Shown here piece after piece: positions 12,558 through 32,575 of a stretch of DNA of 33,065 nucleotides. The translations under genes were made by a program, and so were the position numbers. Origin of the DNA: Lentimicrobiaceae bacterium. GTDB taxonomy: Bacteria > Bacteroidota > Bacteroidia > Bacteroidales > F082. The number at the start of each line of letters is the position of its first letter. Position 1 is the stretch's first letter. The stretch covers positions 1-33,065 of the forward strand of contig SUWS01000031.1 of assembly GCA_015061365.1 (NCBI GenBank), written 5' to 3'. A model generated the notes under the pieces. It searched no databases and was not told the DNA's origin. It saw nothing but the letters and a program-made list of their open reading frames with translations.

Positions 12558-14392
12558 AAAGAATATACGAATATACAGACTTGCAACCGGTTTTGGATCA
12601 ATTGTTACAAAATAAGGAATCCAGCGACTTGGAATTTAAGTCGGCGAAAGGAGGTTTTCCTCATTCTTTTTGGGAAACTTATTCCTCATTTGCCAATACT
12701 AATGGTGGTGCAATTGTTTTTGGTATCAAGGAAAAAAATGAACAATTCTTTCTTGATGGACTGACAGAAGAGCAGGTGAAAAAATACGAGAGAGATTTTT
12801 TTAATGCTATGCATAATAAGGAAAGAGTAAATATAGCTCTTTTAAATGAGAATGATGTGCAGACTGTTAAGTTTGGAGAAGCCTATTTCCTTTTCTTCTA
12901 TGTGCGGAGGGTTGATAGAGGTTTAAAACCAGTATATTGTGGACTTGATCCATATACAGGGACTTATCGTCGTGACCTTGAAGGTGATTATCATTGTTCT
13001 CGCGAAGAAGTAAACAGTATGTTTGCCGATGCCAATTTGACAAGTCCGGTAGATGGACGTATTCTGAAAAACTTCAGTAAGGAAGATTTGGATGGGGATT
13101 CAATCAAGCAATATCGTCGTAGATTTGAGCAATGGAATCCTGATCATGTGTGGAATGCATTGCCTGAAGATAATTTTTTGGAAAAACTGAATGTGTTCAG
13201 GAAAGACCGCAATACGGGTGAGTATGGTCTGACGTATGCCGGTTTGTTGATGTTTGGAACTTATAGTGCCATTATGGATGAAAATCCTAATTTCTTTCCG
13301 GATTATCAAGAAGTGCAAGATCTGAAGGATAGGTGGGTAAACCGCATTTGTCCCGACGGAAATTGGGAGTCAAATCTGTTTCAGTTCTACAGTCGGGTAT
13401 TGCCTATTTTGCAAAACTTTTTGCCTAAACCGTTTATATTGGAAGATAATCAGAGAAAGACGGAAACACCGGCACATGTGGCTGTAAGAGAGGCTTTGAC
13501 TAATGCTTTGGTTCATTCCGACTATACAGAGAATGTTTCTTTGAACATATATAAATACCCCAATAAAATGGTATTTGCCAATCCGGGTACAATGTTGATT
13601 CCTTTGAAGCAATACTATAAAGGCGGTGAGAGTGTGTGTAGAAACAAATATTTGCAGACAATGTTCACGTTCCTAGGGTCGGCAGAGAAGGCTGGTAGTG
13701 GAGCTGATAAGATTATACACGGATGGGAAAAACAAAACTGGAAACGCCCCTATATAGAAGAGAAAAGCAAACCGAATAAAGTGGTGCTCACCATGTCAAT
13801 GGAGTCGTTGTTGGACGAATCAATTATGCAGGGTCTTGCAAAACATTTTGGCGATCAAATTCAAAAACTTTCTCGCCAACAACTTATGACACTTGCATTA
13901 GCCTACTCGGAGGAAGAAATTACGAACGAACGTTTGCAGTGTGTATTGGATATGCATAGGACTGATATTACACAGATGCTAAGTAGATTATGTGCTCAGA
14001 AATACTTAGAATCCACTGGATATGGTAGGGGAACAAAGTATCATATATATGGACTTAATATAGGACTTCAAGATGCTAATATAGGACTTCAAGATGCTAA
14101 TATAGGACTTCAAGATGCTAATATAGGACTTCGAGATGCTAATATAGGACTTCAAGATGCTAATATAGGACTAAGAAGGAAAAGATATTCGAAGGAGCAA
14201 ATGAGAGAACTTATTATTGATTATTGCCAAGAATGGAGAACGGCAGAGGAGATAGCCATTGCTGTAGATAAGACGACAGCTTATATTAGAGACATCGTTC
14301 TTCCAAAACTAACCGATGTTTTGGAAAAGAGATATGATGTACCTCATCACCCAAAACAGAAGTATAGAGTAAAGCAACAGAAGAAGGAGTAA
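12554..14392 (+). CDS. AlbA/Schlafen-type ATP-binding protein with 7-residue tandem repeats
   Basis: This 612-residue protein has an AlbA_2 (Schlafen-like) nucleic-acid domain at the N-terminus (ESSDLEFK at residues 22-29, SFANTNGG at 45-52) and a GHKL-type ATP-binding region with REALTNALVHSDY at 312-324 and NPGTML soon after. A helix-turn-helix region (about 430-495) and a final winged helix (about 540-605, HPKQKYRV near the end) suggest DNA binding. Residues 502-540 are a tandem NIGLQDA repeat encoded by 21-base units. Proteins of this family are usually described as putative transcriptional regulators, but Schlafen-like domains also occur in nucleases, so it could either control the operon or take part in defence. 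It overlaps DUF262 by four bases, and res starts four bases after its stop. Confidence 0.85.
   Translation: MKRIYEYTDLQPVLDQLLQNKESSDLEFKSAKGGFPHSFWETYSSFANTNGGAIVFGIKEKNEQFFLDGLTEEQVKKYERDFFNAMHNKERVNIALLNENDVQTVKFGEAYFLFFYVRRVDRGLKPVYCGLDPYTGTYRRDLEGDYHCSREEVNSMFADANLTSPVDGRILKNFSKEDLDGDSIKQYRRRFEQWNPDHVWNALPEDNFLEKLNVFRKDRNTGEYGLTYAGLLMFGTYSAIMDENPNFFPDYQEVQDLKDRWVNRICPDGNWESNLFQFYSRVLPILQNFLPKPFILEDNQRKTETPAHVAVREALTNALVHSDYTENVSLNIYKYPNKMVFANPGTMLIPLKQYYKGGESVCRNKYLQTMFTFLGSAEKAGSGADKIIHGWEKQNWKRPYIEEKSKPNKVVLTMSMESLLDESIMQGLAKHFGDQIQKLSRQQLMTLALAYSEEEITNERLQCVLDMHRTDITQMLSRLCAQKYLESTGYGRGTKYHIYGLNIGLQDANIGLQDANIGLQDANIGLRDANIGLQDANIGLRRKRYSKEQMRELIIDYCQEWRTAEEIAIAVDKTTAYIRDIVLPKLTDVLEKRYDVPHHPKQKYRVKQQKKE
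14057..14173 (+). repeat. 21-base tandem repeat inside the AlbA/ATP-binding gene
   Basis: Five complete 21-base units (14057, 14078, 14099, 14120, 14141) and a 12-base partial unit at 14162. Four of the five are identical; the unit at 14120 differs by one base (Gln codon to Arg codon). Each unit encodes NIGLQDA. As 21 is divisible by three, loss or gain of units by slippage would keep the frame and change only the length of the linker. Confidence 0.95.
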
Positions 14393-17796: not shown

Positions 17797-18438
17797 ATGG
17801 GTATCATAGACGAAAAACATTATAGAGAATTTTTGAAGCAGGCGCATCGTTATGGTGATGCCAAACTGACTTTATGCTCCAGCGGTAACCTCTCATGGCG
17901 CGTCGATGACGACATCGCGCTTGTCTCGGGAACAGGATCATGGGTTCCTACCTTGAAATTAGAAAACATCTCGCTTTGTAATATAGAGACCGGCACTGTT
18001 CTCAACGGCGTGAAGCCTTCCATGGAAAGCACCTTCCACCTCGGCATCATGCGTCAGCGTCCCGATGTCAACGTGGTGTTTCACTTCCAGTCGGAATACG
18101 CTACCGCGATTGCTTGCATGAAAGAGAAACCTGCTAACTTCAACGTCACTGCCGAGATCCCGATTCACGTCGGCGTGGAGATTCCGGTGATACCGTATTA
18201 CAGACCTGGCTCTCCTGAACTCGCAGCTGCTGTGTTGGAAGCGATGAAAGAACATAACTCTTGTCTCATGACTAATCACGGACAGGTGGTCTGCGGAAAG
18301 AACTTCGACGAGGTGTTCGAACGCGCCACTTTCTTCGAGATGGCTTGCAGGATAATAGTGCAGTCGGGTGGCAACTATTCCACATTGAGTCAGAAAGACA
18401 TCGACGATTTAAGTATTTACATTGCAGGAAAGAAATAA
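17797..18438 (+). CDS. Class II aldolase, probable L-fuculose/rhamnulose-phosphate aldolase
   Basis: The 213-residue product has class II aldolase features: SSGNLS at residues 28-33 (phosphate site), E77 in PSMEST (catalytic acid), and zinc-ligand positions H96 in VFHFQS and H161 in TNHGQVVCG. In E. coli FucA the first pair is HxH; here it is H-F-Q, so the second histidine is replaced by Gln98. Length is normal for FucA (about 212-215). It would split a deoxy-ketose 1-phosphate into dihydroxyacetone phosphate and lactaldehyde. The kinase gene follows after one base, giving a two-gene kinase/aldolase unit as in fucose operons of Bacteroides; isomerase and permease are not in the window. The ATG at 17797 is chosen because the upstream extension consists of repeat DNA. 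Confidence 0.8.
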   Translation: MGIIDEKHYREFLKQAHRYGDAKLTLCSSGNLSWRVDDDIALVSGTGSWVPTLKLENISLCNIETGTVLNGVKPSMESTFHLGIMRQRPDVNVVFHFQSEYATAIACMKEKPANFNVTAEIPIHVGVEIPVIPYYRPGSPELAAAVLEAMKEHNSCLMTNHGQVVCGKNFDEVFERATFFEMACRIIVQSGGNYSTLSQKDIDDLSIYIAGKK

Positions 18439-18439
18439 T

Positions 18440-19777
18440 ATGAGATTCATAGCAGCAGACTTCGGCGCAGGCAGCGGACGCGTTATCGTAGGGACGTGGT
18501 TTGCCGCGTCAAAAACCATCGGATTAGAAGAGATTCATCGTTTTGGAAACGAGCAGAAAATGATGGACGGTCATCTCCGTTGGGACTTCGAGGCTCTCTT
18601 CAATGAGTTAAAAACTGGTCTGAAGAAAGCCTTCGCGAAATACGGCGACGAGATAAAGAGCATCGGCATCGACACTTGGGGCGTGGATTACGGTCTCTTA
18701 AATAAAGAAGGTCGTCTGATTGCCAACCCTATCTGTTATCGCGACGACAGAACTAAGGGCATGATGGATGCCGCGTTTCAGAAACTGCCTAAGGAAGAGT
18801 TCTTCCAACACGCCGCCAATCAGTTCATGGAAATAAATACGGCCTTTCAGTTAATGAGCGAGACTGATCTGCAACGCGCTGAGAGACTGCTGTTCATGCC
18901 TGATCTGTTTAATTATTTCCTTACGGGAAAGTGTTATAACGAATTTACCATAGCATCGACATCACAGCTGCTGAATACCAAGACGCATCAGTGGGACGAT
19001 GTCATTTTCGAGAAGTTAAATCTCCCAAAACGTTTGATGCAGGAGATTATCTATCCTGGCACTGTGATAGGTGAACTCACCGCTGAGCTCGCCGCTGAAG
19101 TGGGCGGCAACGCAAAAGTCGTCGCCATCGGCTCGCACGACACCGCGAGTGCAGTGGCTTCGATAAAAGACGATGGCAGCGACTGGGCTTTCATCAGCTC
19201 CGGCACATGGTCGCTCATGGGAACGCCATCGAAAGAACCGATAATATCTAAAGAAGCCTTGGAATCTGACTTCACCAACGAGGGCATGACCGACGGAAGA
19301 ATACGCTTCCTCAAAAACATCACAGGTCTCTGGCTCATACAGCAATTGGTAAAGGAATGGGAACAAGAGGGTTACAGATGTAACTATTCGGAATTAGTTA
19401 AAGAGGCTGAGCTTTCTTCATTGGATTCTTCTTTCGATGTGGATGACGCTCGTTTCATGAATCCTGAGAAGATGTCGGAAGCTATCGTTTCTTATCTTAA
19501 AGAAGAAAATCAAGAGCTTCCAATAACAAAAGGCGATTTCATGCGATGTGTATGCATCTCTTTGGCGAAGAAATATGCCGAGGTCAAGACGCAGATGGAA
19601 CGTTGTACGAATAAGAAGATAAATAAGATTTATATCGTGGGCGGCGGTTCTAAGAATCAGCTGCTTAACCGACTCGCTGCGGAATATACAGGCTGCGAGG
19701 TGATCAGAGGCGAGGTGGAAGCCACCGCGATGGGAAACGTTTTGGTTCAATTAAAATCTGAGAATCTGAAAAACTGA
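18440..19777 (+). CDS. FGGY-family deoxy-sugar kinase (rhamnulokinase/fuculokinase type)
   Basis: The 445-residue protein is of the RhaB-like FGGY type: ADFGAGSGRV at the N-terminus, GIDTWGVDYGLL, GSHDTASAVAS, SSGTWSLMG, and the ATP-site strand IYIVGGGSKNQLLNRLAA. It would phosphorylate rhamnulose or fuculose to feed the aldolase upstream. Two oddities are visible. Residues 17-24 (VGTWFAAS) are encoded by a copy of a REP-like hairpin (18488-18510) that also occurs between genes in this window. The last residues, LKSENLKN, and the stop codon lie inside an octad repeat array; relatives usually run on past the VLVQ element, so the C-terminus may have been replaced. The ATG at 18440 is used; the TTG at 18422 lies inside the aldolase gene. 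Confidence 0.85.
   Translation: MRFIAADFGAGSGRVIVGTWFAASKTIGLEEIHRFGNEQKMMDGHLRWDFEALFNELKTGLKKAFAKYGDEIKSIGIDTWGVDYGLLNKEGRLIANPICYRDDRTKGMMDAAFQKLPKEEFFQHAANQFMEINTAFQLMSETDLQRAERLLFMPDLFNYFLTGKCYNEFTIASTSQLLNTKTHQWDDVIFEKLNLPKRLMQEIIYPGTVIGELTAELAAEVGGNAKVVAIGSHDTASAVASIKDDGSDWAFISSGTWSLMGTPSKEPIISKEALESDFTNEGMTDGRIRFLKNITGLWLIQQLVKEWEQEGYRCNYSELVKEAELSSLDSSFDVDDARFMNPEKMSEAIVSYLKEENQELPITKGDFMRCVCISLAKKYAEVKTQMERCTNKKINKIYIVGGGSKNQLLNRLAAEYTGCEVIRGEVEATAMGNVLVQLKSENLKN
18488..18510 (+). repeat. REP-like hairpin, coding copy in the sugar kinase
   Basis: The stem GACGTGG (18493-18499) pairs with CCGCGTC (18504-18510) around TTTG, with one G-T pair. The 5' extension GTAGG is shared with the intergenic copies at 22437 and 25777. 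Read in frame it gives VGTWFAAS in the beta-hairpin after the first phosphate-binding motif. Confidence 0.75.
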
Positions 19778-19792
19778 GAATCTGAGAAATTG
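19753..19792 (+). repeat. Octad array at the end of the sugar kinase gene
   Basis: The 8-base units AATCTGAG, AATCTGAA, AAACTGAG, AATCTGAG run through the kinase stop codon. The same word is found in the TPR gene and, inverted, at 26346-26394. Confidence 0.85.
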
Positions 19793-20180: not shown

Positions 20181-21473
20181 ATGAGTAGTAATAAAATAGA
20201 CAACAGCACTTTTATAAACAACAGAAAAAATTTCTCCGAGAAACTTGCGAAAAATTCTATGGCTGTGTTCTGCGCCAACGAAGAGATGCCTCGTAACGGT
20301 GACCAATTCTATCCTTACCGTCAGCAGTCGGATTTCTTCTATCTCACAGGCATCGACCGTGACTGCGCATACCTTATTATATATCCCGACCATCCGAATC
20401 CTGATATGCGCGAGATTTTATTCGTGGAACCTTATAGCGAGAATAAAGTTATCTGGCGCGGAGAAATGATAGATGCTAAGGAAGCAGCCGAAATATCGGG
20501 AGCAAAAAACGTGATGTATTCAGATAGATTCGATTCCGTGATGCAAGACCTCGCTCTTTCTTGCGAGACAATTTATCTCAACACTTACGAATATCCTAAA
20601 TATGAATGTCCTGTTGTCACCATCCAACAGAGATTTCTCGATGAGATAAAATCAAGATTCCCTCTGCATAAGTTCGAGCGCAGCGCACCTATATTAAATA
20701 AGTTGCGTATGGTTAAGTCGCAGGAGGAAATTGAGATTACGAAGCAAGCTTGCGACATCACAGCTGAGGCTTTTCGCAGATGTCTTAAAACAGTGAAACC
20801 TAATCTTTATGAATATCAGGTTCAGGCTGAGATAGAATACACCTTTAAATATAATGGAGCTAACGGCAATGCTTATCATCCTATCGTCGCTGCTGGCAAA
20901 AACGCATGCTGTCTTCATTACTCGGCAAATGATAAGATCTTGAACGACGGCGACTTGATACTCTTCGACATAGGCTGCGAATATAAAAATTACTCCTCCG
21001 ATTTAAGTCGTACCATTCCTATCAACGGTAAATTTACGCCAAGACAGAAAGACTGTTATAACGCTGTTCTTCGCGTGATGAAAGAGATTACCAAATTATA
21101 TAAGGTAGGCGGTACCATCGACGAGATTAATAGAACTACTTATAGACTGATGGAAGACGAGATGATAAAACTCGGACTTTTTACGGCACAAGATGTTGCA
21201 AATCAAGATCCTGATTTCCCATTATATCGTAAATACCTGATGCACGGGATGTCGCATCATATCGGATTAGATGTTCACGACAGCGTCGATAAATACGAGC
21301 CTTTCAAGCCAGGAATGATACTCACCTGCGAGCCAGGACTTTACATCAGAGAAGAAGGTATCGGCATCAGAATTGAGAACGACTTGCTCATCACTGAAGG
21401 CGAACCGATAAATCTTTTCGAAGGACTTCCTATCGAGGTGGAGGAGATTGAATGTATAATGCATAATTCATAA
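20181..21473 (+). CDS. Xaa-Pro aminopeptidase (aminopeptidase P family, M24B)
   Basis: This 430-residue cytosolic peptidase would remove N-terminal residues that precede proline. The N-terminal AMP_N domain (FYPYRQQSDFFYLTG) is followed by the pita-bread catalytic domain with a complete two-metal site: D263 and D274 (LFDIGCEYKNYSSDLSRT), H359 in HGMSHHIGLDVHD, a Glu in LTCEPGLYI and a Glu in GIRIENDLL. A perfect promoter stands upstream. The last residues, CIMHNS, and the stop codon are encoded by a TAATGCA heptad array (21457-21483), so the original C-terminal residues may have been replaced. A second, longer member of the same family is encoded at 24311-25732. Confidence 0.93.
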   Translation: MSSNKIDNSTFINNRKNFSEKLAKNSMAVFCANEEMPRNGDQFYPYRQQSDFFYLTGIDRDCAYLIIYPDHPNPDMREILFVEPYSENKVIWRGEMIDAKEAAEISGAKNVMYSDRFDSVMQDLALSCETIYLNTYEYPKYECPVVTIQQRFLDEIKSRFPLHKFERSAPILNKLRMVKSQEEIEITKQACDITAEAFRRCLKTVKPNLYEYQVQAEIEYTFKYNGANGNAYHPIVAAGKNACCLHYSANDKILNDGDLILFDIGCEYKNYSSDLSRTIPINGKFTPRQKDCYNAVLRVMKEITKLYKVGGTIDEINRTTYRLMEDEMIKLGLFTAQDVANQDPDFPLYRKYLMHGMSHHIGLDVHDSVDKYEPFKPGMILTCEPGLYIREEGIGIRIENDLLITEGEPINLFEGLPIEVEEIECIMHNS

Positions 21474-26305: not shown

Positions 26306-26394
26306 AAAATCTGAAAAATTGAAAAATTGAAAACCTGAAAATTTTTCTCAGATTCTCAAATTCTCAGGTTCTCAATTTCTCAGATTCTCAGTTT
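26306..26394. terminator. Inverted octad arrays between convergent genes, probable two-way terminator
   Basis: A forward run of AATCTGAA, AAATTGAA, AACCTGAA units (26306-26340) is followed by inverted units TTCTCAGA, TTCTCAAA, TTCTCAGG (26346-26390). The two halves can pair into a long imperfect hairpin with A- and T-rich ends. It lies exactly between the disrupted lipoprotein gene and the MBL gene, which converge here. Confidence 0.6.
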
Positions 26395-29990: not shown

Positions 29991-30180
29991 AATCTGAAAA
30001 ACTGAGAAAAACTTTGAGCTTTGAACTTTGAACTTTGAGCTTTGAGCTTTGAACCTTGAACTTTGAGCTTTGAGCTTTGAACCTTGAACCTTAGTTCAAC
30101 AGCTTTAGTTCAAAAGCCTTAGTTCAACGTTCAACGTTCAAAAAAAAAAATCCGTTGCCTGTTGACCGTTGTCCGTTGAC
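29991..30180 (+). repeat. Large heptad array between nrdJ and the TPR gene
   Basis: Twelve consecutive 7-base units at 30010-30093 (AACTTTG, AGCTTTG, AACCTTG variants), then about seven units of the inverse type (AGTTCAA, CGTTCAA) to about 30140, an A11 tract, and CCGTTGA-type units at 30151-30180. A trace of the octad AATCTGAA stands at the beginning. The forward and inverse parts could pair into a hairpin after nrdJ. Confidence 0.9.
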
Positions 30181-30186
30181 TTTTAT

Positions 30187-30194
30187 TATCTTTG
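30187..30194 (+). promoter_or_regulatory. Promoter -7 box directly before the TPR gene
   Basis: TATCTTTG, a full TAnnTTTG match, ends six bases before the ATG at 30200, so the transcript may have almost no leader. Confidence 0.5.
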
Positions 30195-30199
30195 CAATC

Positions 30200-32575
30200 A
30201 TGAGAATGCTTCTGCTTTACATATTGCTCGCTTTGCTCGGTCAACAGACAACAGTCAACGGACAACAGACTCCTTTTTTAGAATCTGAGAATCTGAAAAC
30301 CTCAGAATCTGAGAAAGGCTGTGAGCAGCAAACCATAAGCAATGAGTCCTTTTTAGAATCTGAAAAATCCGTGAACATCAGTGAAATTTGTGGGAATGAA
30401 AAAACAAACCATAAATTGGTACAGAAAAAATCTGAGAAAAGCTGTGAGCCACGAGCCATGAGCCATGAGACTTTTTTAGAATCTGAAAATCTGAAAAACT
30501 CAGAATCTGAGAAAGGCTGTGAGCTACGAGCCATGAGCCATGAGCAGAGATTCCGCAAAGCTCAAAGCTCACAGCTCGAAGCTCAAAGCCCTTCTCAGGT
30601 TTTCAGTTTCTCAGTTTCTCAGATTTTATACTTCGAGAACCAAATCCGTCTCGCCGACTCTTTATATAAAAACTATCTCCCGCAATATAATTTTGAGGAA
30701 GTTAAAGCTGCGGTGATGTTTTTTGATAGCCTGCGGCTGACAACAGACAACAGTCAACGGACAACAAACTTTTTGGAAACTGAAAATCTGGAAAACTCAG
30801 AATCTGAGAAAGGCTGCGAGCAGCGAGCCATGAGCAATGAGCCTTTTTTAGAATCTGAAAATCTGAAAACTTCAGAATCTGAGAAAAGGCTAAAGTCGCA
30901 GGGGCGCAATGCTCAAAGCTCACAGCTCGAAGCCCAGAGCCTCAAAAAAACTGTTGACTGTTGTCCGTTGACTGTTGACATAGAATACCTACGCGCTCGC
31001 GCGCACTACTACCACGCCGTTGGCTTGACTGAGCGTGACGACATTGTAGGAGCCTGCGAGCATTATCTGACCGCTTTGGAGATAATGGAATTTGAAACTG
31101 AGAATCTGAGAACCTCAAAATCTGAAAGTATTCTGACTAATGGCAAAAGGCTAAGGTCTAAAGGAAAAGAAAAAGCTCATGGCTCACAGCTCATAGCTCA
31201 TAGCCCCGAGTACGAAAAAATCCGTTTCCTCGCATTGACCTACAACCGTCTCGGAAGGTTGTTTCTTAATGAGAATTATTGTGACTTGGCAATTCTGAAA
31301 TATAGGAAGGCATTGGATTATGTTGAGTTATTAGGAAATAATGAATATAAAGCAAATATCCTTAAAGAATTGGGGAATGTTTATCAGCTTATGGGGAAAT
31401 CTGATAGTGCATTATATTATTATAATAGCTCACTGAAAGCGAATACTGATTTGACAAATAAGTTAGACCTTGAAAAGAACATAGCCCAGATATTATTTGA
31501 TAAAGGGGAGAAAGATAGTGCTTATATTATGATTAAAAGTAATCTTGAGAAATTGGATAATTACAGGCCAATAGATTCATATTATGGTATTTTAGGAATT
31601 TTTTATCATGAAGATGGAGTATATGATTCAGCAATATACTATTTGGGAAAATGCAGTGAAAGTACTAATAACTATGTTAGGAATGCATCATCAATAAGAC
31701 TATCTGCCATATATGATTCATTAGGCGATCTCGAGAAAAAAGCATATTACGACAACATTTCATCAAAATTACTGATAGAAAAAAACAATAAAGAAACCGA
31801 GCACAATAAAATTCAAAGCGTGTATAATGGTTATAAGGAAAGGAAACAAGAAAGAATCAATCTTGCCAATAAGAAAAAAATAACCATATTGTTAATATTT
31901 ACATTTACCGTTATTCTTATTTTATCTATTGCTGCTACCTTATTAAGGTATATGTATAAACGTAGGCAGAAATATTATATCAACTCTATAAAAGAAAAAG
32001 ATGAGTGTCTTCTAACAAAAGATATAATAATTAAACAAATAGAATCGGAAATAAAAGAATATCATAAAGAGATAGAAGACAACAAACTGATAAATAAAGA
32101 TAAAGACAATCTTGTTTCTCTTGCAATAGAATGTCTTGAAATGAGAAAAAAGGAGATTTCTGATAAGGATAAGATTATAAAAAAACAACAGAAAGAATTA
32201 GCAAATATCAATCATGCCAACAAGCCTTCTTTAGACATATATTATGATTCTGAAATATGCAAAATGATTTTAAGCAAAAAGGAGATAGAATATGCTCCAT
32301 TATCGACCGAAGATTTAACATCATTGCTAGAGTCCGCCAATAATAACCTGGGAGGAATAATAGACACTTTAAATTTAACATACCCACAACTTAATAAAGA
32401 TGATATGTATCTTATTTGTTTGATACTATTAAATATCAACAAAAGCGGATTGCCATATTTGTTGAACAGAAGCCGCAAGAACATATGGGAGAGAACCAAA
32501 AGAATAAAAACCATTATGAATATTGGAGAAAAAGAAGATATTTTCTTATTCATAAGAACCAAATTTATAAGATAA
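30200..32575 (+). CDS. TPR/transmembrane/HTH regulator with three in-frame heptad-repeat insertions
   Basis: The 791-residue product begins with a signal-like segment (MRMLLLYILLALLG) and has TPR helices (ENQIRLADSLYKNYL; YLRARAHYYHAVGL; RLGRLFLNENYCDLAILKYRKALDY; LGNVYQLMGKSDSALYYYNSSL), a membrane segment at about 561-582 (ITILLIFTFTVILIL), a charged coiled coil, and a C-terminal HTH-like region (LNKDDMYLICLILLNI, SRKNIWERTKRIKTI). This is the layout of Bacteroidetes membrane-bound TPR regulators, with the sensor outside and the DNA-binding part inside. Between the helices lie three blocks (30240-30627, 30739-30979, 31091-31204) encoding repeats such as FLESENLKTSESEKGCE and TVDCCPLTVD, made of the same 7- and 8-base words seen between genes. 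Without them the protein would be about 540 residues, normal for the family. The earlier in-frame start at 30155 is repeat DNA and is rejected. Confidence 0.75.
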   Translation: MRMLLLYILLALLGQQTTVNGQQTPFLESENLKTSESEKGCEQQTISNESFLESEKSVNISEICGNEKTNHKLVQKKSEKSCEPRAMSHETFLESENLKNSESEKGCELRAMSHEQRFRKAQSSQLEAQSPSQVFSFSVSQILYFENQIRLADSLYKNYLPQYNFEEVKAAVMFFDSLRLTTDNSQRTTNFLETENLENSESEKGCEQRAMSNEPFLESENLKTSESEKRLKSQGRNAQSSQLEAQSLKKTVDCCPLTVDIEYLRARAHYYHAVGLTERDDIVGACEHYLTALEIMEFETENLRTSKSESILTNGKRLRSKGKEKAHGSQLIAHSPEYEKIRFLALTYNRLGRLFLNENYCDLAILKYRKALDYVELLGNNEYKANILKELGNVYQLMGKSDSALYYYNSSLKANTDLTNKLDLEKNIAQILFDKGEKDSAYIMIKSNLEKLDNYRPIDSYYGILGIFYHEDGVYDSAIYYLGKCSESTNNYVRNASSIRLSAIYDSLGDLEKKAYYDNISSKLLIEKNNKETEHNKIQSVYNGYKERKQERINLANKKKITILLIFTFTVILILSIAATLLRYMYKRRQKYYINSIKEKDECLLTKDIIIKQIESEIKEYHKEIEDNKLINKDKDNLVSLAIECLEMRKKEISDKDKIIKKQQKELANINHANKPSLDIYYDSEICKMILSKKEIEYAPLSTEDLTSLLESANNNLGGIIDTLNLTYPQLNKDDMYLICLILLNINKSGLPYLLNRSRKNIWERTKRIKTIMNIGEKEDIFLFIRTKFIR
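30240..30627 (+). repeat. Repeat insertion 1 in the TPR gene
   Basis: Mixed words: GACAACA/GTCAACG (30240-30267), octads AATCTGAG/AATCTGAA (several sites), TGTGAGC/CATGAGC (30443-30470 and again before 30545), CTCAAAG/CTCACAG (30561-30588) and TTTCTCAG octads to 30627. A unit of roughly 100 bases is repeated with changes, so the block has itself been duplicated. No stop codon occurs in the used frame. Confidence 0.85.
30739..30979 (+). repeat. Repeat insertion 2 in the TPR gene
   Basis: Starts with GACAACA, GACAACA, GTCAACG, GACAACA (30739-30766), continues with the same octad and GAGCCAT words as insertion 1, and ends with CTGTTGA, CTGTTGT, CCGTTGA, CTGTTGA (30951-30978). The last word is the reverse complement of the first type, so the ends of the block are inverted. 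Confidence 0.85.
31091..31204 (+). repeat. Repeat insertion 3 in the TPR gene
   Basis: A shorter block: an octad run (AACTGAG AATCTGAG type), a CTAAAGG-like part (GGCTAAGGTCTAAAGG) and GCTCATG, GCTCACA, GCTCATA heptads at about 31175-31202. The encoded residues (ENLRTSKSES, AHGSQLIAHS) interrupt the TPR region. Confidence 0.8.

Follow-up and report, generated by a model that had tools for sequence, protein, structure and literature searches.

The question raised by this locus is how DNA of the kind that fills the gaps between genes has come to lie in frame within a gene, where it would be read as protein. The window, meaning the whole 33,065-nucleotide stretch analyzed here (contig SUWS01000031.1 of the Lentimicrobiaceae bacterium assembly GCA_015061365.1), carries on its forward strand a TPR regulator gene at 30200..32575, encoding 791 amino acids (aa) from its ATG. 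A hydrophobic N-terminal helix precedes the TPR helices, Pfam TPR_12 is matched at aa 345-414, and the translation and the AlphaFold helices point to a membrane/coiled-coil helix and a helical C-terminus. The 50 matches shown in a PDB fold comparison are chiefly TPR and other helical-repeat proteins, and the NCBIfam search gave no family name; "regulator" is taken from the first-pass annotation and the domain layout. Our reading, held at a probability of roughly three in four, is that copies of the genome's own hairpin-forming intergenic repeats have entered three loops of this protein. The repeats would be composites of tandem heptads, octads and their reverse complements, copied from intergenic DNA; the blocks would be translated as disordered linkers, and selection would mainly require an open frame and a tolerable linker.

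Repeat blocks between conserved cores

The first-pass annotation had described about 750 repeat bases at three in-frame places of the 2376-base gene, and this description holds: three in-frame blocks total 762 nt, all features given here lying on the forward strand. Block 1 (30239..30616; aa 14-139) forms the linker from the signal peptide to the first helices. Inspected by eye, it runs through heptads, a T-run, octads and heptads, followed by reverse-complement heptads and octads, and its hairpin unit (30466..30632; octads, heptads, loop, reverse-complement heptads, reverse-complement octads) extends a few bases into core 1. This core (SQILYFENQIRLADSLYKNYLPQYNFEEVKAAVMFFDS; 30617..30730) consists of helices and is 100% identical in amino acids among five paralogs. 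Block 2 (30731..30994; aa 178-265; heptads, octads, heptads, reverse-complement heptads) lies in an inter-helix loop and is followed by the helices of core 2 (ARAHYYHAVGLTERDDIVGACEHY..ALEIME; 30995..31090), with 96% amino-acid identity in the paralogs. Block 3 (31091..31210; aa 298-337), made of octad words, KRLRSKGK words and reverse-complement heptads, also occupies an inter-helix loop. The proposed position between TPR helices is thus right for blocks 2 and 3, and not for block 1, which runs from signal peptide to first helix. Without its blocks the protein would measure 537 aa, a usual size as had been claimed, since five block-free family ORFs of the same genome (C50, C8, two at C41, one at C26) span 482-545 aa from stop to stop.

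The blocks had also been said to consist of the same words as the gaps, and the counts agree. When the blocks are bounded a little more tightly, the share of their 12-mers that is also present in 33.8 kb of this genome lying outside called ORFs is 30% for block 1, 28% for block 2 and 14% for block 3 (ORF calling used a simple script, and this "intergenic" set includes some uncalled genes, e.g. L087:12695-14165). The mean for 500 control windows of 380 bases from the window's other genes is 1.1% (maximum 5.1%), and the regulator's own cores give 0-5%. Block words are frequent in the called ORFs of the sample as well (25%, 31% and 29%, vs a control mean of 9.2%), which led to the detection of blocks in other genes. 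Within the window, 10 of the 21 period-7/8 arrays lie inside the regulator gene.

RNA folding gives a long stem with a z score of -9.8 for the block 1 region (30235-30640) and -7.9 for block 2. Across the blocks of five regulator genes, z is about -2.5 or lower in 14 of 15, vs -0.8 to 0.6 for five core controls. An intergenic copy at L080:3870-4255 has, by eye, an order like that of block 1 and folds with z -5.0. The hairpin unit has at least 93 matches in its own genome, itself included, at E<=0.001; in this and the later repeat searches part of the candidates was scored (here 40 of 241), and the counts are lower bounds.

Disordered loops, as the first-pass annotation had envisaged, are what structure prediction suggests for all three blocks. 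The AlphaFold2 model (29 rows; mean pLDDT 72.7) shows confident helices between the blocks and mainly coil at the sites, with pLDDT <50 at aa 13-114, 132-134, 184-257 and 312-327, that is, within or bordering the blocks, where few rows are homologous. Within blocks, the model has helices at aa 106-125 and 241-248, and two short stretches outside them (629-633 and 671-673) also fall below 50.

Reading frame, paralogs and constraint

Read forward, the octad places a TGA in frame at every third unit. Among octad triplets of the blocks, the in-frame ones comprise 25 TCA and no TGA, and those out of frame 68 TGA, 26 TCA and 7 TAA; the in-frame depletion of TGA vs TCA has p 7.5e-12, a value that assumes independent copies, the paralogs being related. 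Across 1223 block codons the three frames hold 0, 86 and 123 stop codons. These figures support the earlier proposal that selection keeps the gene open. Octads outside genes show TGA 120 times and TCA 90 times, so TCA units pre-exist there; the detector behind this count is loose and also picks up TTA (166) and TAA (153) units, and the TGA and TCA figures alone were used.

The same three sites are occupied in four further genes of the genome (C92, C59, C45 and C58), with size differences that remain in frame; another family member (C23) has one N-terminal block only. Conserved protein over diverged DNA, which the first-pass annotation would have taken as the mark of true domains, is the pattern of core 1 in these five paralogs, where differences by codon position number 0/0/28, and not of block 1, where they number 156/121/186. 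Core 2 gives 18/7/84 (77% at third positions), block 2 gives 122/102/130 and block 3 gives 93/81/134. The ratio of nonsynonymous to synonymous rates (dN/dS) is 0.48, 0.46 and 0.41 for blocks 1, 2 and 3, with some error contributed by repeat alignment, and 0.00, 0.06 and 0.15 for cores 1-3. Since the block values lie at 0.41-0.48 and not at 1, full neutrality is rejected, and block evolution appears, from these alignments, to be loosely constrained rather than free.

Such values also speak for a different explanation, under which the blocks would be functional linker domains whose amino-acid sequence is preserved, and so does the presence of FLESENLKTSESEK or close variants in all five regulators and in an HU/SPOR-like protein (C75); the length of block 2, which ranges between 46 and 169 aa among the five paralogs, speaks against it. 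Further evidence on both sides comes from the relatives discussed below.

How five paralogs came to hold blocks may be judged from two trees of 29 of the 34 collected rows. The tree of the 180-base 5' core requires 12 changes of genome label (shuffled mean 21.3; minimum 11), and the 3' protein tree 18 (shuffled mean 21.4; minimum 11). On the latter, well-supported branches require at least three own-label changes; own_C58 and RGIG7249_L106, for example, pair at 100/99. The contrast would fit 5' halves homogenized within genomes, and gene conversion might homogenize the family's 5' halves within a genome, leaving the 3' halves distinct and the blocks in several paralogs. Wholly independent uptake by the five paralogs is weakened by the same contrast.

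Occupants of the same sites in related genomes

Relatives were drawn from a search of 60 same-genus genomes (the source genome included) and a search of GTDB genome contigs (40 loci). Those of the RGIG series come from the gut of yak, roe deer, water buffalo or cattle, and the source bacterium is related to uncultured ruminant gut bacteria. In the comparison with relatives' regulators that had been proposed, the protein cores are retained and the block sites hold partly or wholly other repeat words: VPEPVEGTTSGASTSSA, SLTHSLGDSVTRRLGDS, SASQNLSVSTSQQLS, RTSGTQELRTSGHQGPRNPEI, NDELAIRNYG...NSTFLIPNY and others. The heptad words QQTTVNGQQT and RTVDCCPLSVD are common to relatives' sites, and octad words resembling those of the window occur in RGIG4154 and SIG105. 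Short linkers are found in SIG106 and L120, site 2 of the latter having 15 residues (LSSIYPKDADLAYKT).

Unrelated repeat peptides at the same sites and a linker as short as that of L120 argue against domains kept for their sequence. In their favor, block 3 is common to L112 (SIG105) and L089; in L112, however, the block 3 DNA itself is alike, which indicates shared DNA and not conserved protein with diverged DNA. Taking both sides together, we consider functional linker domains improbable. Block DNA can, to judge from these alignments, be shared between species.

Further support for an entry of intergenic repeats comes from the occupants themselves. Matches to the RGIG7675 block (L119; G047) number at least 73 in its own genome, self included, and zero in G052; in the window's genome they number at least 78, mainly to the heptad ends of the block (best E 1.5e-13; 40 of 150 and 40 of 254 candidates scored). 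For the RGIG4235 block (L117; G116), at least 41 matches were found in its own genome, self included, along with 4 in the window's genome and 6 in G047 (40 of 72 candidates scored). In both genomes tested, the relative's block is dispersed elsewhere in its own genome. Matches to the octad pattern, with up to 3 mismatches allowed, number 110 in the window's genome; 59 other genomes of the family, including four from the same genus, have none.

Several results weigh against the entry of intergenic repeats as we read it. The first group concerns block 3, the weakest of the three, with the fewest words in common: the window copy is the exception among the 15 blocks, folding with z 0.4 and forming no hairpin, and it is 97% identical in nucleotides to L112 over aligned bases, the adjoining cores being 85% and 83% identical (the figures for L089 are 91%, 92% and 73%). 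Secondly, the complete hairpin unit is chiefly a regulator feature: among the listed matches of at least 120 bases, one lies outside known genes (C60:7679-7821, with one TGA), one lies in the TatD gene and the rest fall in regulators. The low block pLDDT derives in part from the scarcity of homologous rows, and dN/dS in well-aligned block runs is 0.31-0.56, below 1. The 5' tree is built on 180 bases, has good support for 3 of 26 inner branches and places own_C59 apart from the other four. Finally, closer relatives carry the octad pattern, with 41 matches in G117 (RGIG4154), 13 in G040, 9 in G027, 2 in G047, 1 in G053 and 0 in G009. An octad family private to the window's genome was therefore dropped; by its matches, the family is lineage-restricted within the sampling, very uneven in copy number and present beyond one species.

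The octad family's presence in closer relatives also lowers slightly the standing of a broader and tentative idea, namely that certain protein loops of this Bacteroidales lineage are standing landing pads, emptied and refilled by the current repeat family, with the blocks serving as recombination handles that carry one 5' half across many 3' halves. We regard it as rather unlikely; if it holds, protein linkers would keep arising from intergenic repeats throughout the lineage.

Misassembly could in principle have placed intergenic repeats in genes, given that the named relatives are metagenome-assembled, that the source genome is in 115 contigs and that several loci reach contig ends. The insertions, however, are in frame and stop-free, with an intact gene on both sides, and they are seen in records of different series (RGIG and SIG), which makes an assembly artifact very improbable.

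Repeat arrays in other genes and comparable systems

Confinement of the phenomenon to the regulator gene was dropped, arrays having been found in other genes. The sample covers 381.5 kb of the source genome, its contigs being picked by length except for L087 and L088, taken for known hits. Of the 266 sampled ORFs with a length of 150 aa or more, 13 contain interior arrays of period 7 or 8; the figure is 11 of 244 when the two stretches chosen for known hits are left aside. Sixteen arrays have period 7 and four period 8; these are the 20 kept out of 29 listed after exclusion of arrays lying 15 codons or fewer from an ORF end (7) or N-masked (2 rows). Codon-shuffled control genes give at most 0.4 arrays per period (thresholds 11-15), and no gene-interior arrays of period 4, 5, 10 or 11 were detected in five sampled genomes. 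The genes affected encode TatD, TilS, RimO, RNase H1, PAP2, GHMP kinase, dTDP-glucose dehydratase, UDP-sugar dehydrogenase and two proteins with T9SS tails, among others; a Pfam search of ten proteins left two without a match. Automatic counts in relatives gave 4 arrays in 78 genes of G047, 3 in 71 of G009, 12 in 58 of G040 and 0 in 67 of G052. The regulator family is the densest case found of in-frame intergenic repeats.

Among the 20 arrays in genes, 16 have a coding strand without stops in any of its three frames, and 4 have such an opposite strand; where just one strand is stop-free (16 arrays), it is the coding one in 14 (sign test, p 0.004). Outside called genes (n=87), 28 arrays have one stop-free strand, 1 has both and 58 have neither. 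Arrays outside called genes number 87 in 33.8 kb, and those inside called genes 20 in 327.5 kb with ends excluded, as expected if most gene insertions are lost. On our reading, arrays also enter the loops of other proteins, the survivors being open and a multiple of three bases in length.

Two of these genes were compared with relatives through searches that matched 57 and 48 of 60 genomes (the source genome included), 30 loci being aligned from each. The source genome's dTDP-glucose dehydratase is 6-7 residues longer than all 29 fetched relatives; at the DNA level the insertion is not clean, the adjoining bases differing as well, and no target duplication was seen against three relatives, subject to those same differences. 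The TatD loop measures 77 aa vs 14-38 in 29 fetched relatives. Several genus members (L138-L150) have a different peptide in this loop, HFDWSEAEWRN and variants, which may stem from a further palindromic repeat family in translated form.

Units of 7 and 8 bases, not being multiples of 3, could make the arrays phase-variation switches, whereby gain or loss of a unit turns a gene on or off; the TilS gene (L085), with about five perfect octads, would suit such a role. Degeneracy of the arrays in the regulators, each species being represented by one genome, should reduce slippage, and genes with housekeeping roles, RimO and TilS among them, contain arrays as well. We regard phase variation as improbable.

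Palindromic elements can also be pictured as carried into genes by a transposase of the type associated with repetitive extragenic palindromes (REP/RAYT). The blocks are hairpins, the genome encodes one Y1_Tnp protein (C40), and the peptides at relatives' sites and in block 3 of C58 are presumably REP translations. On the other side, inspection by eye of 3.3 kb around the Y1_Tnp gene, the sole such locus, revealed other palindromes beside the gene but neither heptad nor octad arrays of the families in question; element ends are variable and the units tandem; and the single insert compared at the DNA level has no target duplication. A RAYT origin is not supported and seems unlikely to us. Within our reading of copied intergenic repeats, our guess is that copying proceeds by recombination or template switching between arrays and not by a dedicated transposase; this is the weakest link of the mechanism.

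Known systems resemble the blocks in part. Rickettsia palindromic elements, to which the first-pass annotation likened the blocks, measure about 150 bp and each contain an ORF that encodes a conserved peptide (PMC10969869). As in Rickettsia, palindromic repeats are found both outside genes and, in frame, within a number of unrelated ones, and the hairpins, absent from the earlier description, bring blocks 1 and 2 nearer to those elements, 14 of the 15 blocks being hairpin-capable. The likeness fails for an element of about 150 bp with a conserved peptide: the blocks comprise 40-169 aa of repeated 7- and 8-mers and, despite similar working, are for that reason not classed as Rickettsia palindromic elements. 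Tandem heptad and octad arms, variable length and species-dependent repeat families in one loop set them apart.

More than half of the intragenic GTAG/CGTC REPs are dimers or groups coding for 20-30 residues; REPs are palindromes of 20-40 bp tagged with GTAG or CGTC (PMC3733652), whereas the blocks combine many tandem units into composite hairpins. TAACTGA heptamer arrays of Beggiatoaceae, Cyanobacteria and five Bacteroidetes share with the present arrays their place between genes; forward, they bring stops in all frames, and reverse, stop-free ones lie inside 11 ORFs, 7 of which encode short hypothetical or domain-only proteins, with mostly peripheral repeats (PMC4679880). Here, in contrast, loops and linkers of named enzymes are involved, octads occur too, and the stop-carrying orientation is used with its in-frame stop altered. 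Enterobacterial RU elements, 103-168 bp MITE-like units, are likewise small intergenic repeats through which the reading frame continues in gene loci, but they are unlike the tandem heptads or octads described here (PMC2759123). Long hairpins within coding genes are also known from Nematomorpha mitochondria, where both arms encode conserved protein; the present arms code for variable linkers (PMC6649704). Among titles and abstract openings on heptad/octad or intergenic repeats in Bacteroidetes genes, with few subscription journals covered, none concerned this lineage.

Rickettsia and some REP-rich species had already provided examples of in-frame repeats; in the lineage described here, a different one, they affect about 1/20 of the sampled genes. 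Several repeat families, together with related genomes for comparison, make this a natural experiment on the protein loops that can accept near-arbitrary sequence, and allow one to ask whether inserts are passive or recruited. Caution is also due, as gene models and protein alignments from these genomes include repeat-derived segments.

Other repeats were noted in the source genome. In an HU-CCDC81/SPOR-like protein (L017:431-1501, C75) the linker contains a repeat block that keeps the frame. Heptads are also present within T9SS C-terminal sorting domains (Por_Secre_tail), at L082:19468-19999 and L074:10321-13858. An uncalled open frame at L087:12695-13600, which we presume to resemble RecO, has an in-frame heptad/octad block (QVFRFSDSQIL).

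Within the window, intergenic heptad arrays lie 5' of the regulator gene at 30010..30143, and heptad words (GTTGACCGTTGTCCGTTGAC), identified by eye, immediately precede its start codon at 30161..30180. A TATCTTTG box at 30187-30194, adjoining heptads, ends five bases 5' of the ATG; we take it to be a Bacteroidetes-type -7 motif, and the start may be leaderless. An intergenic octad array followed by its own reverse complement occupies 26306..26394. The FGGY-kinase ORF (18422-19777) owes its final codons and its TGA stop to an octad array at 19755..19788, and an octad or heptad array overlaps the 3' end of the M24 peptidase gene (20181-21473), providing its last codons. The Schlafen/AlbA_2 protein has, in its C-terminal part, a period-21 array (NIGLQDA and variants) at 14056-14172, an ordinary in-frame tandem repeat unlike the heptads.

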